A DNA stretch of 23,153 bases from Daphnia carinata (lineage: Eukaryota > Arthropoda > Branchiopoda > Diplostraca > Daphniidae): contig NW_026712530.1 in NCBI RefSeq assembly GCF_022539665.2, forward strand, positions 1 to 23,153. The letters are read 5' to 3'. Position 1 is the stretch's first letter; every line of letters begins with the position of its first letter. The position numbers and the translations under genes are program-made. The notes beneath the pieces were generated by a model. The model was given only the letters and a program-made list of their open reading frames with translations. It did not search any database and was not told the origin of the DNA. Below, piece after piece: positions 1 to 23,153 of the stretch.

Positions 1-505
1 GAATCAGTTTAAAATATCTACATTCAAACAGCATCAAATATACGTGTATTCAATGTGAATATAGTGTTATAGAATCAGTTTCAATATCTACATTCAAACA
101 GCATGAAATATACGTGTATTCAATGTGAATATAGTGTTATAGAATCAGTTTCAATATCTACATTCAAACAGCATCAAATATACGTGTATTCAATGTGAAT
201 ATAGTGTTATAGAATCAGTTTCAATATCTACATTCAAACAGCATCAAATATACGTGTATTCAATGTGAATATAGTGTAAGAATGAGTTTCAATATCTACA
301 TTCAAACAGCATGAAATATACGTGTATTCAATGTGAATATAGTGTTATAGAATCAGTTTCAATATCTACATTCAAACAGCATCAAATATACGTGTATTCA
401 ATGTGAATATAGTGTTATAGAATCAGTTTCAATATCTACATTCAAACAGCATCAAATATACGTGTATTCAATGTGAATATAGTGTTATAGAATGAGTTTC
501 ATATA

Positions 506-3500
506 GTGTAAGACAGTGAGTTTCAATATCTACATTCAAACAGCATGAAATATACGTGTATTCAATGTGAATATAGTGTTATAGAATCAGTTTCAATATC
601 TACATTCAAACAGCATGAAATATACGTGTATTCAATGTGAATATAGTGTTATAGAATCAGTTTCAATATCTACATTCAAACAGCATGAAATATACGTGTA
701 TTCAATGTGAATATAGTGTTATAGAATCAGTTTCAATATCTACATTCAAACAGCATCAAATATACGTGTATTCAATGTGAATATAGTGTTATAGAATCAG
801 TTTCAATATCTACATTCAAACAGCATCAAATATACGTGTATTCAATGTGAATATAGTGTTATAGAATCAGTTTCAATATCTACATTCAAACAGCATCAAA
901 TATACGTGTATTCAATGTGAATATAGTGTTATAGAATCAGTTTCAATATCTACATTCAAACAGCATCAAATATACGTGTATTCAATGTGAATATAGTGTT
1001 ATAGAATCAGTTTCAATATCTACATTCAAACAGCATCAAATATACGTGTATTCAATGTGAATATAGTGTTATAGAATCAGTTTCAATATCTACATTCAAA
1101 CAGCATGAAATATACGTGTATTCAATGTGAATATAGTGTTATAGAATCAGTTTCAATATCTACATTCAAACAGCATGAAATATACGTGTATTCAATGTGA
1201 ATATAGTGTTATAGAATCAGTTTCAATATCTACATTCAAACAGCATCAAATATACGTGTATTCAATGTGAATATAGTGTTATAGAATCAGTTTCAATATC
1301 TACATTCAAACAGCATGAAATATACGTGTATTCAATGTGAATATAGTGTTATAGAATCAGTTTCAATATCTACATTCAAACAGCATGAAATATACGTGTA
1401 TTCAATGTGAATATAGTGTTATAGAATCAGTTTCAATATCTACATTCAAACAGCATCAAATATACGTGTATTCAATGTGAATATAGTGTTATAGAATCAG
1501 TTTCAATATCTACATTCAAACAGCATCAAATATACGTGTATTCAATGTGAATATAGTGTTATAGAATCAGTTTCAATATCTACATTCAAACAGCATCAAA
1601 TATACGTGTATTCAATGTGAATATAGTGTTATAGAATCAGTTTCAATATCTACATTCAAACAGCATCAAATATACGTGTATTCAATGTGAATATAGTGTT
1701 ATAGAATCAGTTTCAATATCTACATTCAAACAGCATCAAATATACGTGTATTCAATGTGAATATAGTGTTATAGAATCAGTTTCAATATCTACATTCAAA
1801 CAGCATCAAATATACGTGTATTCAATGTGAATATAGTGTTATAGAATCAGTTTCAATATCTACATTCAAACAGCATCAAATATACGTGTATTCAATGTGA
1901 ATATAGTGTTATAGAATCAGTTTCAATATCTACATTCAAACAGCATGAAATATACGTGTATTCAATGTGAATATAGTGTTATAGAATCAGTTTCAATATC
2001 TACATTCAAACAGCATCAAATATACGTGTATTCAATGTGAATATAGTGTTATAGAATCAGTTTCAATATCTACATTCAAACAGCATGAAATATACGTGTA
2101 TTCAATGTGAATATAGTGTTATAGAATCAGTTTCAATATCTACATTCAAACAGCATGAAATATACGTGTATTCAATGTGAATATAGTGTTATAGAATCAG
2201 TTTCAATATCTACATTCAAACAGCATCAAATATACGTGTATTCAATGTGAATATAGTGTTATAGAATCAGTTTCAATATCTACATTCAAACAGCATCAAA
2301 TATACGTGTATTCAATGTGAATATAGTGTAAGACAGTGAGTTTCAATATCTACATTCAAACAGCATGAAATATACGTGTATTCAATGTGAATATAGTGTT
2401 ATAGAATCAGTTTCAATATCTACATTCAAACAGCATCAAATATACGTGTATTCAATGTGAATATAGTGTTATAGAATCAGTTTCAATATCTACATTCAAA
2501 CAGCATGAAATATACGTGTATTCAATGTGAATATAGTGTTATAGAATCAGTTTCAATATCTACATTCAAACAGCATCAAATATACGTGTATTCAATGTGA
2601 ATATAGTGTTATAGAATCAGTTTCAATATCTACATTCAAACAGCATGAAATATACGTGTATTCAATGTGAATATAGTGTTATAGAATCAGTTTCAATATC
2701 TACATTCAAACAGCATCAAATATACGTGTATTCAATGTGAATATAGTGTTATAGAATCAGTTTCAATATCTACATTCAAACAGCATCAAATATACGTGTA
2801 TTCAATGTGAATATAGTGTTATAGAATCAGTTTCAATATCTACATTCAAACAGCATCAAATATACGTGTATTCAATGTGAATATAGTGTTATAGAATCAG
2901 TTTCAATATCTACATTCAAACAGCATCAAATATACGTGTATTCAATGTGAATATAGTGTTATAGAATCAGTTTCAATATCTACATTCAAACAGCATCAAA
3001 TATACGTGTATTCAATGTGAATATAGTGTTATAGAATCAGTTTCAATATCTACATTCAAACAGCATGAAATATACGTGTATTCAATGTGAATATAGTGTT
3101 ATAGAATCAGTTTCAATATCTACATTCAAACAGCATCAAATATACGTGTATTCAATGTGAATATAGTGTTATAGAATCAGTTTCAATATCTACATTCAAA
3201 CAGCATGAAATATACGTGTATTCAATGTGAATATAGTGTTATAGAATCAGTTTCAATATCTACATTCAAACAGCATGAAATATACGTGTATTCAATGTGA
3301 ATATAGTGTTATAGAATCAGTTTCAATATCTACATTCAAACAGCATCAAATATACGTGTATTCAATGTGAATATAGTGTTATAGAATCAGTTTCAATATC
3401 TACATTCAAACAGCATCAAATATACGTGTATTCAATGTGAATATAGTGTTATAGAATCAGTTTCAATATCTACATTCAAACAGCATCAAATATACGTGTA

Positions 3501-6500
3501 TTCAATGTGAATATAGTGTTATAGAATCAGTTTCAATATCTACATTCAAACAGCATCAAATATACGTGTATTCAATGTGAATATAGTGTAAGACAGTGAG
3601 TTTCAATATCTACATTCAAACAGCATGAAATATACGTGTATTCAATGTGAATATAGTGTTATAGAATCAGTTTCAATATCTACATTCAAACAGCATGAAA
3701 TATACGTGTATTCAATGTGAATATAGTGTTATAGAATCAGTTTCAATATCTACATTCAAACAGCATGAAATATACGTGTATTCAATGTGAATATAGTGTT
3801 ATAGAATCAGTTTCAATATCTACATTCAAACAGCATCAAATATACGTGTATTCAATGTGAATATAGTGTTATAGAATCAGTTTCAATATCTACATTCAAA
3901 CAGCATGAAATATACGTGTATTCAATGTGAATATAGTGTTATAGAATCAGTTTCAATATCTACATTCAAACAGCATGAAATATACGTGTATTCAATGTGA
4001 ATATAGTGTTATAGAATCAGTTTCAATATCTACATTCAAACAGCATGAAATATACGTGTATTCAATGTGAATATAGTGTTATAGAATCAGTTTCAATATC
4101 TACATTCAAACAGCATGAAATATACGTGTATTCAATGTGAATATAGTGTTATAGAATCAGTTTCAATATCTACATTCAAACAGCATCAAATATACGTGTA
4201 TTCAATGTGAATATAGTGTTATAGAATCAGTTTCAATATCTACATTCAAACAGCATGAAATATACGTGTATTCAATGTGAATATAGTGTTATAGAATCAG
4301 TTTCAATATCTACATTCAAACAGCATCAAATATACGTGTATTCAATGTGAATATAGTGTTATAGAATCAGTTTCAATATCTACATTCAAACAGCATCAAA
4401 TATACGTGTATTCAATGTGAATATAGTGTTATAGAATCAGTTTCAATATCTACATTCAAACAGCATGAAATATACGTGTATTCAATGTGAATATAGTGTT
4501 ATAGAATCAGTTTCAATATCTACATTCAAACAGCATGAAATATACGTGTATTCAATGTGAATATAGTGTTATAGAATCAGTTTCAATATCTACATTCAAA
4601 CAGCATGAAATATACGTGTATTCAATGTGAATATAGTGTTATAGAATCAGTTTCAATATCTACATTCAAACAGCATGAAATATACGTGTATTCAATGTGA
4701 ATATAGTGTTATAGAATCAGTTTCAATATCTACATTCAAACAGCATCAAATATACGTGTATTCAATGTGAATATAGTGTTATAGAATCAGTTTCAATATC
4801 TACATTCAAACAGCATGAAATATACGTGTATTCAATGTGAATATAGTGTTATAGAATCAGTTTCAATATCTACATTCAAACAGCATCAAATATACGTGTA
4901 TTCAATGTGAATATAGTGTTATAGAATCAGTTTCAATATCTACATTCAAACAGCATGAAATATACGTGTATTCAATGTGAATATAGTGTTATAGAATCAG
5001 TTTCAATATCTACATTCAAACAGCATCAAATATACGTGTATTCAATGTGAATATAGTGTTATAGAATCAGTTTCAATATCTACATTCAAACAGCATCAAA
5101 TATACGTGTATTCAATGTGAATATAGTGTTATAGAATCAGTTTCAATATCTACATTCAAACAGCATCAAATATACGTGTATTCAATGTGAATATAGTGTT
5201 ATAGAATCAGTTTCAATATCTACATTCAAACAGCATCAAATATACGTGTATTCAATGTGAATATAGTGTTATAGAATCAGTTTCAATATCTACATTCAAA
5301 CAGCATGAAATATACGTGTATTCAATGTGAATATAGTGTTATAGAATCAGTTTCAATATCTACATTCAAACAGCATCAAATATACGTGTATTCAATGTGA
5401 ATATAGTGTTATAGAATCAGTTTCAATATCTACATTCAAACAGCATGAAATATACGTGTATTCAATGTGAATATAGTGTTATAGAATCAGTTTCAATATC
5501 TACATTCAAACAGCATCAAATATACGTGTATTCAATGTGAATATAGTGTTATAGAATCAGTTTCAATATCTACATTCAAACAGCATCAAATATACGTGTA
5601 TTCAATGTGAATATAGTGTTATAGAATCAGTTTCAATATCTACATTCAAACAGCATCAAATATACGTGTATTCAATGTGAATATAGTGTAAGACAGTGAG
5701 TTTCAATATCTACATTCAAACAGCATGAAATATACGTGTATTCAATGTGAATATAGTGTTATAGAATCAGTTTCAATATCTACATTCAAACAGCATCAAA
5801 TATACGTGTATTCAATGTGAATATAGTGTTATAGAATCAGTTTCAATATCTACATTCAAACAGCATGAAATATACGTGTATTCAATGTGAATATAGTGTT
5901 ATAGAATCAGTTTCAATATCTACATTCAAACAGCATGAAATATACGTGTATTCAATGTGAATATAGTGTTATAGAATCAGTTTCAATATCTACATTCAAA
6001 CAGCATCAAATATACGTGTATTCAATGTGAATATAGTGTTATAGAATCAGTTTCAATATCTACATTCAAACAGCATGAAATATACGTGTATTCAATGTGA
6101 ATATAGTGTTATAGAATCAGTTTCAATATCTACATTCAAACAGCATGAAATATACGTGTATTCAATGTGAATATAGTGTTATAGAATCAGTTTCAATATC
6201 TACATTCAAACAGCATGAAATATACGTGTATTCAATGTGAATATAGTGTTATAGAATCAGTTTCAATATCTACATTCAAACAGCATCAAATATACGTGTA
6301 TTCAATGTGAATATAGTGTTATAGAATCAGTTTCAATATCTACATTCAAACAGCATCAAATATACGTGTATTCAATGTGAATATAGTGTTATAGAATCAG
6401 TTTCAATATCTACATTCAAACAGCATCAAATATACGTGTATTCAATGTGAATATATATAGTGTTATATCTACATTCAAACAGTTGAAAATATCAATGTGA

Positions 6501-9500
6501 ATATAGTGTTATAGAATCAGTTTCAATATCGTGTACATTCAAACAGCATCAAATATACGTGTATTCAATGTGAATATAGTGTTATAGAATCAGTTTCAAT
6601 ATCTACATTCAAACAGCATCAAATATACGTGTATTCAATGTGAATATAGTGTAAGACAGTGAGTTTCAATATCTACATTCAAACAGCATGAAATATACGT
6701 GTATTCAATGTGAATATAGTGTTATAGAATCAGTTTCAATATCTACATTCAAACAGCATCAAATATACGTGTATTCAATGTGAATATAGTGTTATAGAAT
6801 CAGTTTCAATATCTACATTCAAACAGCATGAAATATACGTGTATTCAATGTGAATATAGTGTTATAGAATCAGTTTCAATATCTACATTCAAACAGCATG
6901 AAATATACGTGTATTCAATGTGAATATAGTGTTATAGAATCAGTTTCAATATCTACATTCAAACAGCATCAAATATACGTGTATTCAATGTGAATATAGT
7001 GTTATAGAATCAGTTTCAATATCTACATTCAAACAGCATGAAATATACGTGTATTCAATGTGAATATAGTGTTATAGAATCAGTTTCAATATCTACATTC
7101 AAACAGCATGAAATATACGTGTATTCAATGTGAATATAGTGTTATAGAATCAGTTTCAATATCTACATTCAAACAGCATGAAATATACGTGTATTCAATG
7201 TGAATATAGTGTTATAGAATCAGTTTCAATATCTACATTCAAACAGCATCAAATATACGTGTATTCAATGTGAATATAGTGTTATAGAATCAGTTTCAAT
7301 ATCTACATTCAAACAGCATGAAATATACGTGTATTCAATGTGAATATAGTGTTATAGAATCAGTTTCAATATCTACATTCAAACAGCATCAAATATACGT
7401 GTATTCAATGTGAATATAGTGTTATAGAATCAGTTTCAATATCTACATTCAAACAGCATGAAATATACGTGTATTCAATGTGAATATAGTGTTATAGAAT
7501 CAGTTTCAATATCTACATTCAAACAGCATGAAATATACGTGTATTCAATGTGAATATAGTGTTATAGAATCAGTTTCAATATCTACATTCAAACAGCATC
7601 AAATATACGTGTATTCAATGTGAATATAGTGTTATAGAATCAGTTTCAATATCTACATTCAAACAGCATCAAATATACGTGTATTCAATGTGAATATAGT
7701 GTTATAGAATCAGTTTCAATATCTACATTCAAACAGCATCAAATATACGTGTATTCAATGTGAATATAGTGTTATAGAATCAGTTTCAATATCTACATTC
7801 AAACAGCATCAAATATACGTGTATTCAATGTGAATATAGTGTAAGACAGTGAGTTTCAATATCTACATTCAAACAGCATGAAATATACGTGTATTCAATG
7901 TGAATATAGTGTTATAGAATCAGTTTCAATATCTACATTCAAACAGCATCAAATATACGTGTATTCAATGTGAATATAGTGTTATAGAATCAGTTTCAAT
8001 ATCTACATTCAAACAGCATCAAATATACGTGTATTCAATGTGAATATAGTGTTATAGAATCAGTTTCAATATCTACATTCAAACAGCATCAAATATACGT
8101 GTATTCAATGTGAATATAGTGTTATAGAATCAGTTTCAATATCTACATTCAAACAGCATCAAATATACGTGTATTCAATGTGAATATAGTGTTATAGAAT
8201 CAGTTTCAATATCTACATTCAAACAGCATGAAATATACGTGTATTCAATGTGAATATAGTGTTATAGAATCAGTTTCAATATCTACATTCAAACAGCATC
8301 AAATATACGTGTATTCAATGTGAATATAGTGTTATAGAATCAGTTTCAATATCTACATTCAAACAGCATGAAATATACGTGTATTCAATGTGAATATAGT
8401 GTTATAGAATCAGTTTCAATATCTACATTCAAACAGCATCAAATATACGTGTATTCAATGTGAATATAGTGTTATAGAATCAGTTTCAATATCTACATTC
8501 AAACAGCATCAAATATACGTGTATTCAATGTGAATATAGTGTTATAGAATCAGTTTCAATATCTACATTCAAACAGCATCAAATATACGTGTATTCAATG
8601 TGAATATAGTGTTATAGAATCAGTTTCAATATCTACATTCAAACAGCATGAAATATACGTGTATTCAATGTGAATATAGTGTTATAGAATCAGTTTCAAT
8701 ATCTACATTCAAACAGCATCAAATATACGTGTATTCAATGTGAATATAGTGTAAGACAGTGAGTTTCAATATCTACATTCAAACAGCATGAAATATACGT
8801 GTATTCAATGTGAATATAGTGTTATAGAATCAGTTTCAATATCTACATTCAAACAGCATGAAATATACGTGTATTCAATGTGAATATAGTGTTATAGAAT
8901 CAGTTTCAATATCTACATTCAAACAGCATCAAATATACGTGTATTCAATGTGAATATAGTGTTATAGAATCAGTTTCAATATCTACATTCAAACAGCATG
9001 AAATATACGTGTATTCAATGTGAATATAGTGTTATAGAATCAGTTTCAATATCTACATTCAAACAGCATGAAATATACGTGTATTCAATGTGAATATAGT
9101 GTTATAGAATCAGTTTCAATATCTACATTCAAACAGCATCAAATATACGTGTATTCAATGTGAATATAGTGTTATAGAATCAGTTTCAATATCTACATTC
9201 AAACAGCATGAAATATACGTGTATTCAATGTGAATATAGTGTTATAGAATCAGTTTCAATATCTACATTCAAACAGCATCAAATATACGTGTATTCAATG
9301 TGAATATAGTGTTATAGAATCAGTTTCAATATCTACATTCAAACAGCATGAAATATACGTGTATTCAATGTGAATATAGTGTTATAGAATCAGTTTCAAT
9401 ATCTACATTCAAACAGCATGAAATATACGTGTATTCAATGTGAATATAGTGTTATAGAATCAGTTTCAATATCTACATTCAAACAGCATGAAATATACGT

Positions 9501-9953
9501 GTATTCAATGTGAATATAGTGTTATAGAATCAGTTTCAATATCTACATTCAAACAGCATCAAATATACGTGTATTCAATGTGAATATAGTGTTATAGAAT
9601 CAGTTTCAATATCTACATTCAAACAGCATCAAATATACGTGTATTCAATGTGAATATAGTGTTATAGAATCAGTTTCAATATCTACATTCAAACAGCATC
9701 AAATATACGTGTATTCAATGTGAATATAGTGTTATAGAATCAGTTTCAATATCTACATTCAAACAGCATCAAATATACGTGTATTCAATGTGAATATAGT
9801 GTTATAGAATCAGTTTCAATATCTACATTCAAACAGCATCAAATATACGTGTATTCAATGTGAATATAGTGTTATAGAATCAGTTTCAATATCTACATTC
9901 AAACAGCATCAAATATACGTGTATTCAATGTGAATATAGTGTAAGACAGTGAG
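506..9953. repeat. Phased variant-linker units within the left array
   Basis: The linker variant GTGTAAGACAGTGAG occurs at 506-520, 2326-2340, 3586-3600, 5686-5700, 6649-6663, 7839-7853, 8749-8763 and 9939-9953. Spacings are 1820, 1260, 2100, 963, 1190, 910 and 1190 bp, which are 26, 18, 30, (about 13.8), 17, 13 and 17 units. The one non-integer interval contains the disturbed unit at 6451-6540. In all eight cases the next unit is of the G type (GCATG). The variant is therefore inherited with its neighbour, as expected if blocks of several units are amplified together. Confidence 0.85.
6451..6540. repeat. Disrupted satellite unit
   Basis: Here the regular 70-bp phase breaks. An ATATATATAG run replaces the normal linker, a shortened unit follows (TGTTATATCTACATTC, then AGTTGAAAATATCAATG), and the next unit carries a 4-base GTGT insertion before ACATTC. 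It is the only strong break in the otherwise regular 520-9930 stretch and shifts the phase of the following block relative to the preceding one. It could be a replication-slippage or unequal-exchange junction. Confidence 0.8.
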
Positions 9954-10480
9954 TTTCAAATTCAAACAGCATGAAATATACGTGTATTCAATGTGAATAT
10001 AGTGTTATAGAATCAGTTTCAATATCTACATTCAAACAGCATCAAATATACGTGTATTCAATGTGAATATAGTGTTATAGAATCAGTTTCAATATCTACA
10101 TTCAAACAACATCAAATATACGTGTATTCAATGTGAATATAGTGTTATAGAATCAGTTTCAATATCTACATTCAAACAGCATCAAATATACGTGTATTCA
10201 ATGTGAATATAGTGTAATACAGTGAGTTTCAATATCTACATTCAAACAGCATGAAATATACGTGTATTCAATGTGAATATAGTGTTATAGAATCAGTTTC
10301 AATATCTACATTCAAACAGCATGAAATATACGTGTATTCAATGTGAATATAGTGTTATAGAATCAGTTTCTTTATCTACATTCAAACAACATCAAATATA
10401 CGTGTATTCAATGTGAATATAGTGTTATAGAATCAGTTTCATGATCTACATTCAAACAGCATCAAATATACGTGTATTCA

Positions 10481-11290
10481 GAAAAATGTGAATATAGTGT
10501 TGAAAATAAAATAATATATCAATATCTACATTTAAACAACATATAAACAAAAAAATGCGTTTTTTTATTCAATGTGAATATAGTGTTATAGATTCAGTTT
10601 CAATATCTACATTCAAATAGCATAAAATATACGTGTATTCAATGTGAACATAGTGTTATAGAATCAGTTTCAATATCTACATTCAAACAGCATGAAATAT
10701 ACGTGTATTCAATGTGAATATAGTGTTATAGAATCAGTTTCATGATCTACATTCAAACAGTATCAAATATACGAGTATTCAATGTGAATATAGTGTTATA
10801 GAATCAGTTTCATTATCTACATTCAAACAGTATCAAATATACGTGTATTCAATGTGAATATAGTGTTATTTAGTTCGCCAGTTTCAATATCTTAAATAAC
10901 AGCTTCTTAAAAATATTCGTGTATTCAATTGAATATAATTTAGATTCAGTTTCAATATCTAAAAACAGCATGAAAATAATATTGTGTGCATTCTAAAATC
11001 GTGAATATAGTTTATAATATTTCAGTTAGAAATATCTACATTCAAAAGCAAAATAGGTTGGTATTCAATGTGAATATGTGTGCCTTTTATAGAATCAAAG
11101 TTCGTTTTTATTTATTTTCAAACAGCAAAATTACGTGTATTCAATGGAATATCGTGTTAAGAATCGTTTCAATTCTACATTCAAACAACAACAAAAATAC
11201 GTGTATTTTTTGTTTATATGTTGCAAAAATTAAATGCCATCTAATAGTAATATATTATTTTATTTTCAAACAGCATCTGGAAATATACGT
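10481..11290. repeat. Degenerate satellite segment
   Basis: Recognisable satellite words (CTACATTCAAA, ACGTGTATTCAATG, GAATATAGTGT) continue at roughly the expected spacing but are interrupted by many substitutions, indels and A/T-rich insertions, for example around 10490-10570, 10870-10910, 10950-11000, 11090-11120 and 11200-11275. Sequence on both sides returns to nearly perfect units. I see no credible gene: the open frame at 10986-11303 is made of satellite words and low-complexity A/T. The source of the non-satellite bases is not identified. Confidence 0.8.
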
Positions 11291-12130
11291 GTATTCAATG
11301 TGAATATAGTGTAATACAGTGAGTTTCAATATCTACATTCAAACAGCATGAAATATACGTGTATTCAATGTGAATATAGTGTTATAGAATCAGTTTCAAT
11401 ATCTACATTCAAACGGCATCAAATATACGTGTATTCAATGTGAATATAGTGTAATACAGTGAGTTTCAATATCTACATTAAAACAGCATGAAATATACGT
11501 GTATTCAATGTGAATATAGTGTTATAGAATCAGTTTAAATATCTACATTCAAACAGCATCAAATATACGTGTATTCAATGTGAATATAGTGTAATACAGT
11601 GAGTTTCAATATCTACATTCAAACAGCATCAAATATACGTGTATTCAATGTGAATATAGTGTTATAGAATCAGTTTCAATAGCTACATTCAAACAGCATC
11701 AAATATACGTGTATTCAATGTGAATATAATGTTATAGAATCAGTTTATATCTACATTCAAACAGAATCAAATATACGTGTACTCAATGTGAATATAGTGT
11801 TTTAGAATCAGTTTCAATATCTACATTCAAACAGCATCAAATATAAGTGTATTCAATGTGAATATAGTGTTATAGAATCAGTTTCTATATCTACATTCAA
11901 ACAACATCAAATATACGTGTATTCAATGTGAATATAGTGTTATAGAATCAGTTTCAATATCTACATTCAAACTGCATGAAATATACGTGAATTCAATGTG
12001 AATATAGTGTTATAGAATCAGCTTAAATATCTAAATTCAAACAGTATCAAATATACGTGTATTCAATGTGAATATAGTGTGATACAGTGAGTTTCAATAT
12101 CTACATTCAAACAGCATGAAATATACGTGT
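11291..12130. repeat. 70-bp satellite array between the degenerate segment and the DIRS element
   Basis: About 12 regular units with slightly more point variation than the 520-9930 block. The linker variant here is GTGTAATACAGTGAG (near 11308, 11448 and 11588) or GTGTGATACAGTGAG (near 12077), rather than the TAAGACAG form found further left. The last unit is interrupted after GTATT by the DIRS element, and its remainder (CAATGTGAATATAG) resumes at 16778. Confidence 0.95.
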
Positions 12131-12234
12131 ATTATAAATAGAAAAACTCCGCTCAACTTTTACAGTGTTGACACGTCATTTATTTAGCTTTCTGAGTTCT
12201 TTTCGCGCCATTGCCGCGCCTCATGCCTCAGACC
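12131..12234 (+). repeat. DIRS left inverted terminal repeat and 5' leader
   Basis: 12156-12234 is the exact reverse complement of 16621-16699 (79 of 79). The outermost part, 12131-12167, is the reverse complement of the first third of the ICR (16147-16183), with one substitution at 16175. In DIRS elements the left terminus holds the promoter and 5' untranslated region. Candidate motifs seen by eye are a CRE-like near-palindrome TGACACGTCA at 12169-12178 and an E2F-like TTTCGCGC at 12201-12208. Neither is proven, and no convincing TATA box is seen. The gag ATG follows 26 bases downstream. Confidence 0.92.
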
Positions 12235-12260
12235 GTTTTTAGCTTTATCTGAGTGCAGTC

Positions 12261-13466
12261 ATGGATTCCACCTCGTCACCGCTTAGCGAAGGGTCGTATT
12301 CCATTGACTCGAGAGTGAATTTAGAAGTTAGAAGAAACTCTCCCTTTCCTAGAGGGCCTGGATCATCACGTTCTAGATCGCGCTCCTGGTCAAGACGATA
12401 CGACGTATCATCGCAGGATCACAGGAGAGACAGAAGCAGAGAACGTAGACGTCGGAACAGATCAAGATCACGAGATCGGCATCGTAGACGTTCACCACGC
12501 CGGTCATCAAGGAGCCGCTCCAGATCTCGACGCAGAGAGCGTTCTTCAAGATCCTCGCAGACGCCCCCACCTACGCCAGCCCTAGACCGAATCTTTCCAA
12601 AGGAGGCGTCAGCCCAACTAGCATCTTGGATGTCTGTTGGACAGAAACCAGCTCAAACTAGAGAGCTGAGGGACATTTTTAAACCGGCGTTCGAGGACAA
12701 AAATTTTCTGTTGTCATGCCCAAAAATGGATGACGTGGTAGAGCGGCAGATTTCCCGCAACAGGCACAGTAAATTCATCGCACAGAGAGAGTTGATCTGG
12801 AAATCAACACAGCTTAAGGTATTAGATATCGTCAGACCGCTGATTTCGCTTTGGAACCGCTTAGCTCCAAATACAGAGGAAGGGGCGATTTTGGAGAGCG
12901 CGATCCGTCTTTGGGCGGAAGCTCACTTCTTTATCTCAAAGAATAGGAGAGCCAACGTGATGAATAGCGTTTATCCACGCTTCAAATCCCTTTTGAAAGA
13001 TCCCGCCAACTTTTCGCCTTCGGAAGTTGCCCAGCTTTTTGGTCCGACCTTTACCTCCGCTCTTCTGCAAGCAGCCGACGAGGACGCAAAATTACAAAAA
13101 GTCGCATCAGTCGGAAGGATCAGTGGAGGATTCGGCCAAAAAACTCAACAGAAACAAGCGGATAAGCCAGAGGATCCTCGCCCCGGTACTTCGAGACAAG
13201 GAGACCCGTCTGAGAGACGTGGTTACCAGACAAGGTACACTGACAGTCTCCCTCTTTTCTTTCCGGTCGTTAAGACACCCACACTGGGTAGGACGTCTAC
13301 CTTAGTCAGAAAAAATGTAGGAGCTAGACTTAGATTCTTTGCTGTAGCGTGGCGTGCGTTGACCAATGACCCTTGGATCCATGAGATCATAGAGTCGGGT
13401 TACAAAATCGTTTTCGAGTCGGAACCTTTTCAATCTAAAGAACCGGGGGAATGCGTGATGAGTTAG
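12261..13466 (+). CDS. gag: DIRS gag-like protein with SR-rich N-terminus (401 aa)
   Basis: Putative nucleocapsid/structural protein of the DIRS element. The ATG has a good eukaryotic context (G at -3 and +4) and is the first one after the left terminus. Residues 35-100 are extremely rich in Arg-Ser and Arg (SRSRSRSWSRR, RSSRSRSRSR), resembling SR splicing factors and likely an RNA-binding or nuclear-targeting region. Residues about 185-285 resemble the conserved core of DIRS gag proteins (ESAIRLWAEAHFFISKNRR at 212-230, QLFGPTFTSALLQAADEDAK around 258-277). No CCHC zinc knuckle is seen. Residues about 354-389 (ARLRFFAVAWRALTNDPWI) look like the linker that opens the RT polyprotein in other DIRS elements, so this ORF seems to run from gag into early pol and to end at a TAG (13464-13466). 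After that TAG the same frame stays open to 13603. Recognition is by eye from family pattern. Confidence 0.85.
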   Translation: MDSTSSPLSEGSYSIDSRVNLEVRRNSPFPRGPGSSRSRSRSWSRRYDVSSQDHRRDRSRERRRRNRSRSRDRHRRRSPRRSSRSRSRSRRRERSSRSSQTPPPTPALDRIFPKEASAQLASWMSVGQKPAQTRELRDIFKPAFEDKNFLLSCPKMDDVVERQISRNRHSKFIAQRELIWKSTQLKVLDIVRPLISLWNRLAPNTEEGAILESAIRLWAEAHFFISKNRRANVMNSVYPRFKSLLKDPANFSPSEVAQLFGPTFTSALLQAADEDAKLQKVASVGRISGGFGQKTQQKQADKPEDPRPGTSRQGDPSERRGYQTRYTDSLPLFFPVVKTPTLGRTSTLVRKNVGARLRFFAVAWRALTNDPWIHEIIESGYKIVFESEPFQSKEPGECVMS

Positions 13467-14036
13467 CAAATGGATTTGGTCTGCGACGCGGAAGTATCGG
13501 ATTTGTTGAAGAAAGAGGCCATTGTCAGAGCCCCAGAAACACCGGGTTTTTACAGTAGATTGTTCGCCATTCCTAAGAAAACGGGGGTTATAGGCCGATA
13601 ATCAACCTAAAGAATCTCAACCAGCACATAGTTTACAAGCATTTTAAAATGGAGGGGTTGGACGTTGTAAAAAATTTGTTAAAAAAGGGGGATTGGATGG
13701 CTAAGCTTGACTTAAAGGATGCCTACCTGACGGTACCCGTGTGCTTCGCCCATCAGCCCTTTTTGCGTTTTAGGTGGAGAGAAAACGCCTACCAATTTAC
13801 ATGTCTACCTTTTGGGCTGGCGCCGGCCCCTCGGGTGTTTACTAAACTTTTAAAACCTGTAATGACGGCCCTACGTTCGAAAGGGGTGAGGGTGATCATT
13901 TACCTAGACGACATGTTATTTTTGAATGAGAGGAGGGAGGGGCTGTTAACAGATGTGAAGCTAGCGTCAGACCTCCTTCAAGGGGCTTGGTTTTCTCATC
14001 AACTGGGAAAAATCGCACCCGTCACCTTCCCAAACT
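13467..14036 (+). pseudogene. Reverse transcriptase domain segment of DIRS pol
   Basis: RT landmarks are readable in order: PGFYSRLFAIPKK before the first frameshift; LDLKDAY (motif A, catalytic Asp, 13706-13726); LPFGLAPAPRVF (motif B, 13805-13840); and YLDD (motif C, catalytic Asp pair, 13901-13912) within VIIYLDDMLFL. After the second frameshift, EFLGMILDS around 14040-14065 closes the thumb region. YLDD rather than YMDD, with the LPFGL box, fits DIRS and Ty3-like RTs. All catalytic aspartates are present, so the damage is confined to the reading frame. The open frame that starts at 14037 begins at a TTG, which is an internal Leu codon and not a true start. Confidence 0.88.
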
Positions 14037-14972
14037 TTGGAATTCCTAGGGATGATTTTGGATTCCCCGTCGCTGGCCTTCATTTTGCCAGAAAAGAAGA
14101 GGGAAAAAACTCGCAAGCTTTGTGTTCAGGCGCTGAAACATAATAGGGTAAAATTAAGAGACCTTGCAAAGATAATGGGCAACTTTGCTTGGGCCATTCC
14201 GGCCGTGCCGTTTGCACAGGCTCATTACAGGAAAGTCCAGCGTGATTTAATTCGGGCACTGCACAAGAATGTGGGGGATTTCGAAAGCTGTTTCACCTTA
14301 TCCGAGGAAGCTAAAGCTAACCTTAGCTGGTGGATCACGAATATGGGCTCATCAAAGGGTAAAGTCATTTTTTCAGGCGAGCCGGACATGACTATTTTTT
14401 CGGACGCGTCAATGACCGGATGGGGAGCGGTTTTTAACAGGAGCACCGCTAGAGGTCCATGGTCAGTGGAAGATGGCCAAAGACACATAAACGAATTGGA
14501 GCTCCTGGCCGCTTTTTTCGCCCTCCAGTCGTTTGCCGCTACGGCATCCAACATATCCATCTCTTTACAGATGGATAACTGCACGGCGGTGTGCTATATT
14601 AACAGAGGAGGAGGAACTCATTCGAGATCCCTTTCTGATTTAGCGACACAGATCTCATCATGGTGCGAGAGTCGCCAAATTACGGTTCACGCGAGTTACC
14701 TGCCGGGACACCTCAACATTGTCGCCGACCGAGAGTCAAGGATGGGACTAGACAGCAGCGACTGGGCGCTCGATCAAGAGGTTTTCACGGCTATAAACAA
14801 CGTCTGGACATGCCAGGTGGACCTGTTCGCAGCGGCCTGGAACAAAAAACTAGAAAAATTCTTTGCCTGGACTCCGCAACCACAGGCAACCGGAGTAGAC
14901 GCGTTCTCGACCAGTTGGAAAGGCTTAAAAGCTTACGCCTTTCCCCCTTTGGCCTCATCCTCAGGAGTCTAG
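14037..14972 (+). pseudogene. RNase H and connection segment of DIRS pol
   Basis: RNase H removes the RNA strand during cDNA synthesis. Numbering residues from 14037, candidate active-site acids are D123 in IFSDAS (14403-14405), E153 or E155 in INELELLA, D180 in LQMDN, and D231 in IVADRESR, the D-E-D-D pattern of this family. GWGAVF follows the first Asp as expected. The segment continues into the DIRS-specific tail (CQVDLFAAAWNKKLEKFFAW) and terminates prematurely at 14970-14972 because of the one-base loss in the C run at 14943-14947. The rest of the tail continues in another frame to 15121. Confidence 0.88.
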
Positions 14973-15033
14973 CGAAGATTCGCAGAGAGCAAGCATCGCT
15001 GGTTCTTGTGTCCCCATACTGGCCCAGCGCGGC

Positions 15034-16143
15034 ATGGTACCCGCTCCTGTTGGAGCTAGCGGTAGACGTGCCAAGGATTTTAAGGCCAGACGCCAAGCTG
15101 CTAACCTCACCGTCGGGGTAAGCTCACCCGCTTCCGCTATGCCTCATCGCATGGAAGTTATCCGGCAACGCTTACAAAACCAAGGCCTTTCGGAGACGGT
15201 GGTCAACCTATTGCTGGATGGGACACGCCAATCCACACAAGCTACTTACCAGTCGGCCTGGAACAATTGGCTCGGTTGGTGCCTTAGGCGGGATCTTGAT
15301 CCCGTGTCAGTGTCTTTGAATTCTGTGCTAGAGTATCTGGCGGAATTGCACACGGAGAACTGTTCCTACAGCCTTCTCAACATCCATAGGTCGATGCTGT
15401 CGACCACCCTAGAGCAAGCAGGCTCCATTCCGGTGGGGCAGCTGCCTTCAGTAAAGCAGCTTTTGAGAGGAGCGTTTAACCGTAATCCGCCCAAGCCAAG
15501 ATACTCCAACACCTGGGACGTTAGTAAGGTGGTAACCTTGTTGACGTCATGGGGTCCTAACGACCAGATCAGCCGGACGCAGCTGTCCAAAAAATTAACA
15601 ACGTTGTTGGCTCTGTCAACGTTTCTCAGAGTCTCGGAGTTGAGCTCTATCACACGCAGCTCAGTAGAGATTTCGAGTACAAGAGCCTCGTTCGCCCTCA
15701 GCCGACCGAGGAAGGCACAACGGAGTGGCTCACTCCAGACGATAGGAATCGACGCTCTAAACGATCCTCGAATATGCCCAGTACAGTGCTTGGGTGCCTA
15801 TCTGCTCGCTACAGACACAAAAAGAAACGAGAGCAACAGAGACCTCCTATTCATAGGGGCGATCGCACCCTTTAAGCAGGTCTCCTCCAGCACACTTAGT
15901 CGCTGGATTAAGTCGGTCCTCATGGAAGCGGGAGTTGAAGCATCCTTTACGGCCCACTCGACAAGGGGCGCGGCTGCATCGCAAGCATTGGCTCAAGGGA
16001 CCCCGATTGACTCAGTTTTAGCAATGGGCAATTGGGCAGCGGAATCTACCTTCACACGCTTTTATAGGCGTACAGTGGCTCCTAGCATTCCGATTTCTCG
16101 GGCGGTTCTTGAACCCCAATTTTCCGCTCAGCCAGTACTTTGA
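15034..16143 (+). CDS. DIRS tyrosine recombinase (YR), intact
   Basis: Site-specific recombinase expected to insert the circular DIRS DNA into the genome. Numbering from the 15034 ATG, the catalytic set is visible: Arg199 in TFLRVSEL, His308 and Arg311 in FTAHSTRGAAAS, Trp334 in MGNWAAES (the His/Trp position) and the nucleophile Tyr344 in TRFYRR. The N-terminal SAM-like core-binding region lies about 40-150 (RQSTQATYQSAWNNWLGW). The 369-aa frame is open throughout. The first 29 codons overlap the end of pol in another frame, so the internal ATG at 15139 (Met36), 18 bases after the pol stop, is an equally good or better start and gives 334 aa. The stop lies 3 bases before the ICR, as usual in DIRS elements. 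It is the only fully intact enzyme gene in the element. Confidence 0.93.
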   Translation: MVPAPVGASGRRAKDFKARRQAANLTVGVSSPASAMPHRMEVIRQRLQNQGLSETVVNLLLDGTRQSTQATYQSAWNNWLGWCLRRDLDPVSVSLNSVLEYLAELHTENCSYSLLNIHRSMLSTTLEQAGSIPVGQLPSVKQLLRGAFNRNPPKPRYSNTWDVSKVVTLLTSWGPNDQISRTQLSKKLTTLLALSTFLRVSELSSITRSSVEISSTRASFALSRPRKAQRSGSLQTIGIDALNDPRICPVQCLGAYLLATDTKRNESNRDLLFIGAIAPFKQVSSSTLSRWIKSVLMEAGVEASFTAHSTRGAAASQALAQGTPIDSVLAMGNWAAESTFTRFYRRTVAPSIPISRAVLEPQFSAQPVL

Positions 16144-16146
16144 AAT

Positions 16147-16269
16147 CACTGTAAAAGTTGAGCGGAGTTTTTCTACTTATAATTTTTTAATTGCTCGAGG
16201 GATCGCTTCAGCGATCCCGCGGAGCAATTGGGATTATAAGTGGGAAAAACGTAGGAAGACTTTTACAGT
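16147..16269 (+). repeat. DIRS internal complementary region (ICR)
   Basis: 16147-16183 is the reverse complement of the left outer end (12131-12167) with one mismatch at 16175. 16181-16269 is the reverse complement of the right outer end (16689-16777) with one mismatch at 16221. The two halves overlap by three bases (AAT, 16181-16183), the complement of the single ATT expected at the circle junction. In the accepted DIRS model the ICR is the template that completes both termini and aligns them for circularisation. The fit of all three parts supports the element boundaries given here. Confidence 0.93.
16189..16229. repeat. Long hairpin in the ICR (copy of the right-end hairpin)
   Basis: Nested inverted repeat: outer arms AATTGCTC (16189-16196) and GAGCAATT (16222-16229), inner arms GGGATCGCT (16199-16207) and AGCGATCCC (16210-16218), a two-base TC loop, and a small internal bulge (GA against GCG). 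The same structure, inverted, forms the right end of the element at 16729-16769. It could act as a YR binding site or an RNA structure, but neither role is demonstrated. Confidence 0.8.
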
Positions 16270-16620
16270 CTATTTCCCACCCACAAAAAAAAAAAAAAAA
16301 TTGCAAAGTATTATTATTTTTTACCCGCCCAGACCTGTAATTAAAAGTCTTTGTTTGGTGTTGTGGATTCCCAATGCAGGAGCAGAGGAGGTGGTCGAGG
16401 TAGGCAGGGACCATTAAGACAAGTGAAGGAAGCATCAAAATAATTTCAGTTCCAGGAGCTACGGAAGTCCTATTATATTCCAGCTAATCTGGCAGCCTTC
16501 TTCGGTCAGAAAATCCTTCCAGAAGTTGAAAAGAAATTTTTTTGTGTTAATGTCTCGGTTCCTTCCCCTTTTTTGTTCCCTACTTTCCTCTTCCTATGGA
16601 TCCGCACTCAGAAGCTAACG
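16270..16620 (+). other. DIRS 3' non-coding region
   Basis: Lies between the ICR and the right inverted repeat. It holds a 16-base A run (16285-16300), T/C-rich stretches near 16560-16600, and a short G-rich patch (16380-16410) that reads as Arg/Gly-rich in one frame (RSRGGGRGRQG) and then stops. The open frames crossing it extend from the YR region or from the antisense strand and have no family resemblance. I do not support a gene here. Confidence 0.75.
16285..16300 (+). repeat. A16 homopolymer
   Basis: Sixteen consecutive A residues immediately after the ICR. It is not at the element end, so it is not a retroposed poly(A) tail of this copy. Its length is likely to be inaccurate in long-read data. 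Confidence 0.9.
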
Positions 16621-16777
16621 GGTCTGAGGCATGAGGCGCGGCAATGGCGCGAAAAGAACTCAGAAAGCTAAATAAATGACGTGTCAACACTGTAAAAGTC
16701 TTCCTACGTTTTTCCCACTTATAATCCCAATTGCTTCGCGGGATCGCTGAAGCGATCCCTCGAGCAATTAAAAAATT
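16621..16777 (+). repeat. DIRS right inverted terminal repeat and outer end
   Basis: 16621-16699 is the perfect inverted copy of 12156-12234. The right end extends 78 bases further than the shared part (16700-16777), with a hairpin at 16729-16769, and finishes with A6TT against satellite CAATG. The left outer end is shorter and different, so the termini are unequal, which is normal for DIRS. The outer part is mirrored in the ICR. Confidence 0.92.
16671..16676 (+). promoter_or_regulatory. Possible polyadenylation signal (AATAAA)
   Basis: A canonical AATAAA lies in the right inverted repeat on the coding strand, downstream of all three genes. Because the repeat is inverted, the left terminus carries it only on the minus strand and would not terminate sense transcription. 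Placement is sensible, but the motif is short and A/T-rich, so the call is weak. Confidence 0.4.
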
Positions 16778-19700
16778 CAATGTGAATATAGTGTTATAGA
16801 ATCAGTTTAAATATCTACATTCAAACAGCATCAAATATACGTGTATTCAATGTGAATATAGTGTAATACAGTGAGTTTCAATATCTACATTCAAACAGCA
16901 TCAAATATACGTGTATTCAATGTGAATATAGTGTTATAGAATCAGTTTCTATATCTACATTCAAACAACATCAAATATACGTGTATTCAATGTGAATATA
17001 GTGTTATAGAATCAGTTTCAATATCTACATTCAAACAGCATGAAATATACGTGTATTCAATGTGAATATAGTGTTATAGAATCAGTTTCAATATCTACAT
17101 TCAAACAGCATCAAACATACGTGTATTCAATGTGAATATAGTGTAATACAGTGAGTTTCAATATCTACATTCAAACAGCATGAAATATACGTGTATTCAA
17201 TGTGAATATAGTGTTATAGAATCAGTTTCAATATCTACCTTCAAACAGCATCAAATATACGTGTATTCAATGTGAATATAGTGTTATAGAATCAGTTTCT
17301 ATATCTACAATATAGTGTTATAGAATCAGTTTCAATATCTACATTCAAACAGCATCAAATATACGTGTATTCAATGTGAATATAGTGTTATAGAATCAGT
17401 TTCAATATCTACATTCAAACAGCATCAAATATACGTGTATTCAATGTGAATATAGTGTTATAGAATCAGTTTCAATATCTACATTCAAACAGCATCAAAT
17501 ATACGTGTATTCAATGTGAATATAGTGTTATAGAATCAGTTTCAATATCTACATTCAAACAGCATCAAATATACGTGTATTCAATGTGAATATAGTGTTA
17601 TAGAATCAGTTTCAATATCTACATTCAAACAGCATCAAATATACGTGTATTCAATGTGAATATAGTATGATACAGTGAGTTTCAATATCTACATTCAAAC
17701 AGCATCAAATATACGTGTATTCAATGTGAATATAGTGTTATAGAATCAGTTTCAATATCTACATTCAAACAGCATCAAATATACGTGTATTCAATGTGAA
17801 TATAGTGTTATAGAATCAGTTTCAATATCTACATTCAAACAGCATCAAATATACGTGTATTCAATGTGAATATAGTGTTATAGAATCAGTTTCAATATCT
17901 ACATTCAAACAGCATCAAATATACGTGTATTCAATGTGAATATAGTGTTATAGAATCAGTTTCAATATCTACATTCAAACAGCATCAAATATACGTGTAT
18001 TCAATGTGAATATAGTGTTATAGAATCAGTTTCAATATCTACATTCAAACAGCATCAAATATACGTGTATTCAATGTGAATATAGTGAATATAGTTTCAA
18101 TATCTACATTCAAACAGCATCAAATATACGTGTATTCAATGTGAATATAGTGTTATAGAATCAGTTTCAATATCTACATTCAAACAGCATCAAATATACG
18201 TGTATTCAATGTGAATATAGTGTTATAGAATCAGTTTCAATATCTACATTCAAACAGCATCAAATATACGTGTATTCAATGTGAATATAGTGTTATAGAA
18301 TCAGTTTCAATATCTACATTCAAACAGCATCAAATATACGTGTATTCAATGTGAATATAGTGTTATAGAATCAGTTTCAATATCTACATTCAAACAGCAT
18401 CAAATATACGTGTATTCAATGTGAATATAGTGTTATAGAATCAGTTTCAATATCTACATTCAAACAGCATCAAATATACGTGTATTCAATGTGAATATAG
18501 TGTTATAGAATCAGTTTCAATATCTACATTCAAACAGCATCAAATATACGTGTATTCAATGTGAATATAGTGTTATAGAATCAGTTTCAATATCTACATT
18601 CAAACAGCATCAAATATACGTGTATTCAATGTGAATATAGTGTTATACAATCAGTTTCATATCTACATTCAAACAGCATCAAATATACGTGTATTCAATG
18701 TGAATATAGTGTTATACAATCAGTTTCAATATCTACATTCAAACAGCATCAAATATACGTGTATTCAATGTGAATATAGTGTTATAGAATCAGTTTCAAT
18801 ATCTACATTCAAACAGCATCAAATATACGTGTATTCAATGTGAATATAGTGTTATAGAATCAGTTTCAATATCTACATTCATTCAAACAGCATCAAATAT
18901 ACGTGTATTCAATGTGAATATAGTGTTATAGAATCAGTTTCAATATCTACATTCAAACAGCATCAAATATACGTGTATTCAATGTGAATATAGTGTTATA
19001 GAATCAGTTTCAATATCTACATTCAAACAGCATCAAATATACGTGTATTCAATGTGAATATAGTGTTATAGAATCAGTTTCAATATCTACATTCAAACAG
19101 CATCAAATATACGTGTATTCAATGTGAATATATGTTATAGAATCAATATCTACATTCAAACAGCATCAAATATACGTGTATTCAATGTGAATATAGTGTT
19201 ATAGAATCAGTTTCAATATCTACATTCAAACAGCATCAAATATACGTGTATTCAATGTGAATATAGTGTTATAGAATCAGTTTCAATATCTACATTCAAA
19301 CAGCATCAAATATACGTGTATTCAATGTGAATAATAGTCTGATAGAATGAGTTTCAATATCTACATTCAAACAGCATCAAATATACGTGTATTCAATGTG
19401 AATATAGTGTTATAGAATCAGTTTCAATATCTACATTCAAACAGCATCAAATATACGTGTATTCAATGTGAATATAGTGTTATAGAATCAGTTTCATATC
19501 TACATTCAAACAGCATCAAATATACGTGTATTCAATGTGAATATAGTGTTATAGAATCAGTTTCAATATCTACATTCAAACAGCATCAAATATACGTGTA
19601 TTCAATGTGAATATAGTGTTATAGAATCAGTTTCAATATCTACATTCAAACAGCATCAAATATACGTGTATTCAATGTGAATATAGTGTTATAGAATCAG

Positions 19701-20377
19701 TTTCAATATCTACATTCAAACAGCATCAAATATACGTGTATTCAATGTGAATATAGTGTTATAGAATCAGTTTCAATATCTACATTCAAACAGCATCAAA
19801 TATACGTGTATTCAATGTGAATATAGTGTTATAGAATCAGTTTCAATATCTATTCAAAAATCAAACAGCATCAAATAGGCGTGTATTCATAGTGTTATAC
19901 AATCAGTTTCAATATCTACATTCAAACAGCAAATATACGTGTATTCAATGTGAATATAGTGTTATAGAATCAGTTTCAATATCTACATTCAAACAGCATC
20001 AAATATACGTGTATTCAATGTGAATATAGTGTTATAGAATCAGTTTCAATATCTACATTCAAACAGCATCAAATATACGTGTATTCAATGTGAATATAGT
20101 GTTATAGAATCAGTTTCATATCTACATTCAAACAGCATCAAATATACGTGTATTCAATGTGAATATAGTGTTATAGAATCAGTTTCATATCTACATTCAA
20201 ACAGCATCAAATATACGTGTATTCAATGTGAATATAGTGTTATAGAATCAGTTTCATATCTACATTCAAACAGCATCAAATATACGTGTATTCAATGTGA
20301 ATATAGTGTTATAGAATCAGTTTCAATATCTACATTCAAACAGCATCAAATATACGTGTATTCAATGTGAATATAGT
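16778..20377. repeat. 70-bp satellite array, right block
   Basis: Resumes in phase with the unit broken at 12133 and in the same orientation. Nearly all units are the C type (GCATC); only the first few (near 17041 and 17161) are G type. Local irregularities include a unit with about half missing near 17303-17325, short linkers near 18085 and 19130, an extra ATTC near 18878, an altered unit at 19850-19930, and recurrent two-base shortening (TTTCATATC for TTTCAATATC) near 18656, 19494, 20117, 20187 and 20259. No genes are seen. The open frame at 18631-18843 exists only because such indels rotate the satellite reading frame. Confidence 0.95.
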
Positions 20378-21767
20378 GTTGATTATCAGTTTATAATCTA
20401 CGTTTTCTATCAAACAGCATCAAATATACCTGTATTCAATGTGAATATAGTGTTGATAATCAGTTTCAATATCTACATTCAAACAGCATCAAATATACGT
20501 GTATTCAATGTGAATATAGTGTTATAGAATCAGTTTCAATATCTACATTCAAACAGCATCAAATATACGTGTATTCAATGTGAATATAGTGTTATAGAAT
20601 CAGTTTCAATATCTACATTCAAACAGCATCAAATATACGTGTATTCAATGTGAATATAGTGTTATAGAATCAGTTTCAATATCTACATTCAAACAGCATC
20701 AAATATACGTGTATTCAATGTGAATATAGTGTTATAGAATCAGTTTAACGACCGGAAAGAAATCTACATTCAAATTGCATCAAATACGTCTCTACGTCTC
20801 CTTGTATTCAATGTGAATATAGTGTTATAGAATCAGTTTCATGATCTACATTCAAACAGCATCAAATATACGTGTATGCAATTTTTGAATATAGTTTATG
20901 CGTCCTCGTCGGCTGCTTGCAGAAGAGCGGATCAAATATCGGTACAAAAATAGTGTTATAGAATCAGTTTCAATATCTACATTCAAACAGCATCAAATAT
21001 ACGTGTATTCAATGTGAATATAGTGTTATAAATCAGTTTCATATCTACATTCAAACAGCATCAAATATACGTGTATTCAATGTGAATATAGACGGATAGA
21101 ATCAGTTTCAATATCTACATTCAAACAGCATCAAATATACGTGTATTCAATGTGAATATAGTGTTATACGATATCAGTTTCAATATCTACATTCAAACAG
21201 CATCAAATATACGTGTATTCAATGTGAATATAGTGTTATAGAATCAGTTTCAATATCTACATTCAAACAGCATCAAATATATGTGTATTCAATGTGAATA
21301 TAGTGTTATAGAATCAGTTTCAATATCTACATTCAAACAGCATCAAATATACGTGGTATTCAATGTGAATATACATCCATAGAATCAGTTTCAATGATCT
21401 ACATTCAAACAGATTCATGTGAATATAGGGAATCAGTTTCATGATATAGTGTGGCGTCAAACAGCATCAAATAGGTATTCAATGTGAATATAGTGAGGAT
21501 CTTGAAGAAGTTCTCGTCGAGATCTACATTCAAACAGCATCAAATATACGTGTATTCAATGTGAATATAGTGTTATGATCAGTTCCGATATCTACATTCA
21601 AACAGCATCAAATATACGTGTCTCAATGTGAATATAGTGTGATACGTCGTTTCAATATCTACATTCAAACAGCATCAAATATACGTGTATTCAATGTGAA
21701 TATAGTGAAAGGGGGAGTTTCAATATCTACATTCAAACAGCATCAAATATACGTATTCAATGGAATA
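20378..21767 (-). repeat. Mosaic of satellite with antisense DIRS gag/early-pol pieces
   Basis: Satellite units are interrupted by short pieces identical to the reverse complement of the DIRS element, in strictly descending element order. Anchors (window against element): 20378-20387/13597-13606; 20401-20408/13576-13583; 20745-20762/13256-13273 (18 of 18); 20796-20805/13196-13205; 20899-20930/13057-13088 (32 of 32); 21090-21097/12903-12910; 21168-21175/12825-12832; 21495-21509/12542-12556 (15 of 15); 21516-21525/12522-12531; 21640-21650/12400-12410; 21707-21721/12334-12348 (14 of 15); 21757-21767/12297-12307. The sum of paired coordinates stays between about 33984 and 34064, so spacing is preserved nearly one to one. 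The bases between anchors are satellite or intermediate between the two. This is not a normal inserted fragment. Confidence 0.88.
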
Positions 21768-23153
21768 TAGTGTTATAGAATCAGTTTCATGATCTACATT
21801 CAAACAGCATCAAATTTACGTGTATTCAATGTGAATATAGTGTTATAGAATCAGTTTCATAATGTACATTTAAACAGTATCGAATGAATGTGTATTCAAT
21901 GTGAATATAGAGTGTGATACAGTGAGTTTCAATGATCTACATTCAAACAGCATCAAATATACGTGTATTCAATGTGAATATAGTGTTATAATGTGAATAT
22001 AGTGTGATACAGTGAGTTTCAAAATCTAAATTCAGACAGCATCAAATATACGTTTATTCAATGTGAATATAGTGTGATACACTGAGTTTCAATATCTACA
22101 TTCAAACAGCATCAAATATACGTGTATTCAATGTGAATATAGTGTTATAGAATCAGTTTCAATATCTACATTCAAACAGCATCAAATATACGTGTATTCA
22201 ATGTGAATATAGTGTTATACAATAAGTTACCATATCTACATTCAAACAGCATCAAATATACGTGTATTCAATGTGAATATAGTGTGATACAATAAGTTTC
22301 CATATCTACATTCAAACAGCATCAAATATACGTGTATTCAATGTGAATATAGTGTTATAGAATCAGTTTCATGATCTACATTCAAACAGCATCAAATATA
22401 CGTGTACTCATTGTGAATATAGTGTGATACAATGAGTTTCAATATCTACATTCAAACAGCATCAAATATACGCGTATTCAATGTGAATATAGTGTTATAG
22501 AATCAGTTTCAATATCTAAATATCTACATTCAAACAGCATCAAATATACGTGTATTCAATGTGAATATAGTGTTATAGAATCAGTTTAATGATCTACATT
22601 CAAACAGCATCAAATATACGTGTATTCAATGTGAATATAGTGTTATACAATAAGTTTCCATATCTACATTCAAACAGCATCAAATATACGTGTATTCAAT
22701 GTGAATATAGTGTTATAGAATCAGTTTCATGATCTACATTCAAACAGCATCAAATATACGTGTATTCAATGTGAATATAGTGTTATAGAATCAGTTTCAA
22801 TATCTACATTCAAACAGCATCAAATATACGTGTATTCAATGTGAATATAGTGTTATAGAATCAGTTTCATGATCTACATTCAAACAGCATCAAATATACG
22901 TGTATTCAATGTGAATATAGTGTGATACAGTGAGTTTCAAAATCTACATTCAAACAGCATCAAATATACGTGTTTCAATGTGAATGTAGTGTGATACAAT
23001 GAGTTTCAATATCTACATTCAAACAGCATCAAATATACGTGTATTCAATGTGAATATAGTGTTATAGAATCAGTTTCATATCTACATTCAAACAGCATCA
23101 AATATACGTGTATTCATTGTGAATATAATGTGATACAATAAGTTTCCATATCT
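21768..23153. repeat. 70-bp satellite array, diverged right end
   Basis: The same 70-bp unit with more variants: linkers GTGTGATACAGTGAG, GTGTGATACAATGAG and GTTATACAATAAG followed by TTTCCATATC or TTACCATATC, frequent TTTCATGATCTAC, a partial unit near 21980-22010, and an AATATCTA duplication near 22510-22525. All C type. The array runs off the window end. No gene or other element is seen. Confidence 0.93.

Follow-up and report, generated by a model that had tools for sequence, protein, structure and literature searches.

Between positions 20378 and 21781 of the window (contig C78 in full, 23153 bases long, from an assembly of 108 Mb and 106 contigs), short patches of an antisense DIRS retrotransposon are interleaved with a 70-bp satellite. 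This patchwork, referred to here as a ghost of the element, is truly present in the contig, and it is very likely a false consensus in which reads of two different sequences were combined, as the first-pass annotation of the stretch had proposed in its leading idea. The reading draws on a partner contig (C81), the blended satellite flank beyond the ghost, two further ghosts, the rough register of the two sequences, the two-way choice of bases along the mosaic and a simulated consensus.

Table 1. Features of the window, with strand and the observation or method behind each
Feature	Position	Strand	Basis or remark
70-bp satellite array, mostly homogeneous	1..12130	(+)	TRF; per-base fit close to 1.0 for the greater part
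Second ghost, foldback (long inverted repeat) element of ~890 bp	10479..11268	(+)	collinear patches at either end, with pure satellite between them
Full-length DIRS1-like retrotransposon, resolved, within the satellite array	12131..16777	(+) sense
Right-hand 70-bp satellite array, after the DIRS element	16778..20377	(+)	no collinear antisense DIRS words; 3 scattered 9-mer matches
Antisense DIRS ghost	20378..21781	(-)	patches of the element start (gag/pol) interleaved with satellite; end estimated from the C81 flank
18-base exact antisense match to 13256-13273	20745..20762	(-)	exact-match search
33-base exact antisense match to 13056-13088	20899..20931	(-)	exact-match search
15- and 11-base exact antisense matches to 12542-12556 and 12522-12532	21495..21525	(-)
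Single-base alternation of gag and satellite	21577..21595	(-)	base-by-base comparison
Blended satellite tail, mixed with the flank to the right of the antisense DIRS in C81	21824..22405	(+)	monomer-by-monomer variant pairing
66-base private satellite block	22021..22086	(+)	exactly two occurrences in the 108-Mb assembly: C78:22021 and C81:22666

The satellite array and its resident DIRS element

A 45-base word of the satellite occurs exactly 16106 times in the assembly (6312 forward, 9794 reverse), which at one word per 70-base unit amounts to over a megabase of satellite. A pattern search for a telomere word gave 0 hits. In the right array, one monomer (17265-17368) carries 34 extra satellite bases, and varied satellite changes abruptly to homogeneous satellite here; this may be a join between reads from different places. 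Small irregular spots are also present to the left of the ghost, at 19334-19349 and 19853-19860.

The inverted terminal repeats of the resident DIRS element (12156-12256 and 16604-16699) agree at 93%. Internally, 16147-16183 complements the left end and 16181-16269 the right end, the 3 bp 16181-16183 being common to both. RVT_1 (9.5e-16) and Phage_integrase (1e-12) domains were detected, and the 335-aa frame at 13965-14969 matched no Pfam family at E 0.01 when checked for RNase H and methyltransferase. It is an ordinary element, in which nothing unusual was found. Close copies were found in contigs C81, in antisense orientation, and C8. The C8 copy (C8:2100375-2105017) is full-length and 99% identical, with flanks other than the 70-bp satellite.

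Antisense DIRS blocks within the satellite array

Comparison of 16778-23153 with the DIRS element returned six reverse-complement matches that are exact over 11 bases or more, all of them within 20378-21767. They lie on anti-diagonals x+y = 33987 to 34064, and the longest are 33, 18 and 15 bases. The alignment of the reverse-complemented element to the right array, suggested in the first-pass annotation, had been expected to give such a diagonal, and its block of 18 out of 18 bases was recovered. The longest block was exact as it had claimed; its length is 33 bases and not 32. Controls at the same threshold gave one forward-strand match in 16778-23153, and one reverse-complement and no forward match in 1-12130. 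When the non-satellite 9-mers of 20378-21767 were compared with antisense DIRS, 55 of 61 matches fell into two adjacent diagonal bins, each 100 wide; the forward-strand control gave 7 matches, scattered.

A two-track alignment, in which each base is assigned to a satellite profile or to the collinear element, was carried out over 20300-21800. It yielded 14 antisense blocks covering 152 bases, with 32 of 1501 bases left unexplained. At the main setting the gain over satellite alone was 130, against a mean of 60.1 (sd 4.9, maximum 73) in 42 controls made up of 20 wrong offsets, 20 Markov shuffles, the reversed element and the complemented element. An alternative setting gave 164.6 against at most 90.7 in 20 controls. 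With a stiff offset penalty the gain was 62 against at most 35 in 90 controls; this penalty misses blocks that drift by 10-30 bases, and the softer setting was therefore used as the main one. Eight further windows of the array, one of which covers the second ghost, gave gains of 0 to 7 at the stiff setting.

Exact blocks of at least 8 bases were also chained within an offset band. The chain comprised 11 blocks and 140 bases, while 50 shuffles, the comparison by which the first-pass annotation had wished its pattern to be judged, reached at most 2 blocks and 17 bases. Blocks of 8-10 bases are weak taken alone, and chance similarity in an AT-rich repeat was considered on that account. Its probability is practically nil in view of the two longest exact matches near one diagonal and a chain far beyond that of the shuffles. 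Chance was rejected on the 9-mer diagonals, the two-track controls and the shuffles.

At the finest scale, antisense gag accounts for 16 of the 19 bases of 21577-21595 and the satellite likewise for 16 of 19, and none fits neither (0/19). The alternation described for 21576-21595 in the first-pass annotation is hence borne out, each base of 21577-21595 fitting one sequence or the other. Its claim of collinear antisense blocks in satellite across 20378-21767 was upheld by all four comparisons, namely exact matches, 9-mer diagonals, two-track alignment and chains. The boundary fared less well. The final block, 21757-21767, is weak, with an identical 11-mer also at 11141; comparison with C81 places the end of the ghost near 21781, and the blend goes on to about 22405 (see below).

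Register of the two tracks

Along the banded chain of 11 blocks the DIRS offset shifted by a median of 8.5 bases and at most 51, over satellite gaps of 2-336 bases, in a band that itself limits the offset. Satellite phase after the ghost blocks resumed within -12 to +2 bases of expectation, in a test where blocks sharing an anchor are not independent and inflate n. Single-diagonal evidence free of the band is given by the exact matches of at least 11 bases and by the 9-mer diagonal bins. Both tracks run roughly in parallel register through the mosaic, which is expected of two sequences aligned base against base. Switches between them presumably lie where both tracks share bases.

The first-pass annotation had named repeated template switching as the biological alternative. 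On this account the patchwork is real DNA: the satellite array and an antisense DIRS copy would have been combined through repeated template switching or microhomology-mediated repair, and the blocks are indeed real and collinear. However, when first one template is copied and then the other, the polymerase does not advance on the template it has left, whereas the register observed here does advance, with offset shifts no greater than those given above over gaps of several hundred bases. Neither the roughly kept satellite phase, nor the single-base alternation, nor the two-way choice at 39 sites past the element would be expected from such switching, and the same holds for the recurrence of the mosaic with two elements at three places. 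As it predicts neither the two-track register nor the blended flank, we consider it very unlikely.

The partner contig C81 and the blended flank

Contig C81 (23298 bases) carries antisense DIRS from 22448 down to 18058, the main piece being 98.5% identical to the copy in the window. Past the DIRS there are about 850 bases of satellite, oriented as in C78. The C81 copy (18058-22448) is without part of its 3' region, and satellite abuts there.

The private 66-base block begins about 220 bases past the end of the DIRS in C81, and in C78 it sits past the ghost. Distances from five ghost blocks to this block are 381-1276 bases in C78 and 498-1361 bases in C81, shorter in C78 by 54 to 118. Some 120-140 bases of DIRS, lying between the flank and the last good ghost block, are without counterpart.

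Eight flank monomers of C78 and C81 were paired by hand, in order. Of the 39 C81-specific sites that these monomers contain, 24 show the C81 base in C78, 15 show the satellite consensus and none shows another base. The share of C81 variants kept was 0.62 in order, against 0.06-0.36 in ten pairings shifted by 1 to 5 monomers. Apart from the C81 variants, the C78 tail departs from C81 at 19 more places, of which the first two monomers hold 15. From the 66-mer found twice and the two-way choice at the 39 sites, we conclude that the blend continues past the element into a satellite flank of C81 type, as far as about 22405.

A palindromic read of the window's own DIRS element (missed adapter or fold-back), mirrored at about 17000, would also make x+y nearly constant, and the observed value of about 34000 is what such a mirror gives. 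It would, however, place antisense satellite beyond about 21930, and the flank past the ghost is sense satellite with the private variants of C81, so that this origin is hardly credible. The model was rejected on the count of antisense satellite 10-mers in C78, which is 0.

Eleven ghost blocks were tested against the DIRS copies; the copies in C78 and C81 each match 11 of 11 and the copy in C8 matches 10 of 11. Since the copies hardly differ within the ghost, the choice of C81 as source rests on orientation and flank. The source would be C81 itself rather than a twin. A related account takes the same artefact from another read source: two haplotypes that share a locus and differ by the antisense DIRS would have been blended, and C81 could then be the resolved allele. 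The left sides speak against this: to the left of the ghost, 17369-20377 is nearly homogeneous satellite, whereas in C81 more varied satellite lies to the left of the DIRS (about 10250-18057), followed by other DNA. Blending of haplotypes is accordingly a possibility we hold to be rather unlikely.

For a consensus of reads from two loci, the course of events may be pictured as follows. Long reads of the C81 locus, comprising the antisense DIRS and its own satellite flank, would have piled up onto satellite reads of C78, probably owing to the 70-bp satellite common to both. In a consensus or polishing step the two stretches, unrelated as they are, would have been aligned base against base, and at each position the path with slightly more support would have been chosen. 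As to the exact step (layout or polishing) and the read technology, we infer rather than observe.

Ghosts at other places

The second ghost in the window is that of a foldback element, an example of which lies at C1:7243517-7244406. Its support is a chain of 20 blocks and 262 bases, where 50 shuffles reached no more than 13 blocks and 95 bases; when seeds of 9 bases were used, 215 bases were chained against at most 57 in shuffles. The element is an inverted repeat with ends alike, so that these are assigned with less certainty. For one 96-base piece of the ghost the assembly contains at least 42 matches, the window itself included.

A third ghost, of sense DIRS, extends over nearly 4 kb of another contig (C63:9956-13855) and contains more DIRS blocks than the ghost in the window. 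Chaining gave 41 blocks and 614 bases, where none of 50 shuffles exceeded 52 bases, and the two-track gain was 515 against a maximum of 156 in 12 controls. In the phase test 6 of 34 deviations were large (-21, -21, -17, 34, 34 and 34), and a single chained block falls well away from the diagonal. At two diagnostic sites this ghost is of C81 type, yet it includes 3' sequence absent from the C81 copy, and 8 of 11 of its longer strings have no exact match in any of the three DIRS copies. Judged by these sequences, its source appears to be another DIRS copy, one without a fully resolved partner among the sequences compared. Elsewhere on the same contig, C63:1790-2070 holds a cluster of shortened satellite units for which no foreign partner was seen by eye; it is perhaps another damaged consensus.

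Simulated consensus of two read sources

Simulations were carried out with a home-made, simple partial-order aligner and a heaviest-path consensus, at 12% error and 12 reads per run. Satellite reads were combined with reads of a 1400-base antisense DIRS piece at five ratios, and each ratio was run with four seeds. With 7 reads of satellite and 5 of DIRS, the consensus had a satellite share of 0.79-0.85, a DIRS share of 0.05-0.07 and 7-9 DIRS blocks; the actual stretch, by the same measures, has 0.85, 0.10 and 9 blocks. The share fitting neither source was 0.12-0.18 in the simulations at this ratio versus 0.07 in the actual stretch. The other ratios gave 35-44 blocks (6:6), mostly DIRS (5:7) or a nearly pure consensus (9:3 and 3:9). 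In this model a consensus step can yield a similar mosaic, and only 7:5 of the five ratios fits. Ghosts vary along their length, and a changing read ratio could be the cause.

Discussion

What a false consensus of two sequences leads one to expect was found at four points. Both sources are present unmixed, as clean satellite in the array and as antisense DIRS in C81. Both tracks advance in register, roughly, with the banding, the shared anchors and the C63 outliers as caveats. Bases foreign to both are few: the small unexplained remainder of the two-track alignment (32/1501), none in the alternating stretch (0/19), none at the C81-specific sites (0/39), and the 19 other differences of the tail. 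The blend also extends into the partner's own flank, as seen from the 66-mer and the variant pairing.

In all likelihood the ghost is an artefact of assembly, a mark of mobile-element insertions left unresolved in the satellite array, and not a new kind of DNA. Ghosts would then flag mobile-element insertions missed by the assembly, and satellite arrays would appear purer than they really are. A mosaic of unrelated sequences that keeps register is, moreover, a sign of false consensus that can be computed from the assembly alone, without reads. We rate the value of the observation as low for biology and moderate as a diagnostic.

Were the mosaic real DNA, a conversion mechanism would be required. 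Satellite would have to overwrite mobile-element insertions in patches of a few bases, with both registers kept, through conversion that tolerates unrelated sequence. We regard this as extremely unlikely, and to our knowledge no such mechanism has been described.

Among known systems, DIRS1-like retrotransposons are defined in PMC3266345 by inverted termini, two internal complementary regions and a 3-bp overlap at the circle junction; PMC4157794 is a further paper on DIRS elements. The element in the window resembles them in its inverted termini, internal complementary regions, reverse transcriptase and tyrosine recombinase. The ghost, unlike the element, is not a form of such retrotransposons.

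As to assemblies, repeat collapse and the mixing of haplotypes are described in PMC8081667. No account of an in-register mosaic of unrelated sequences was found in the available parts of the assembly and polishing literature. Polishers overcorrect repeats and transposable elements, according to the accessible text of PMC12016036, and the likeness to the ghost is that bases of other repeat copies displace correct ones. The difference is that altered k-mers are counted there, and a mosaic of unrelated sequences kept in register is not described in that text. For the assembly of the human X chromosome, PMC7484160 states that reads mapped ambiguously during polishing and that quality in the largest repeats fell as a result. 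The two cases are alike in that placement of reads in large repeats is ambiguous and the consensus worsens. They differ in what is mixed: copies of a repeat on the human X as described there, but a satellite and a retrotransposon in the ghost, where the mosaic is visible at the level of single bases.
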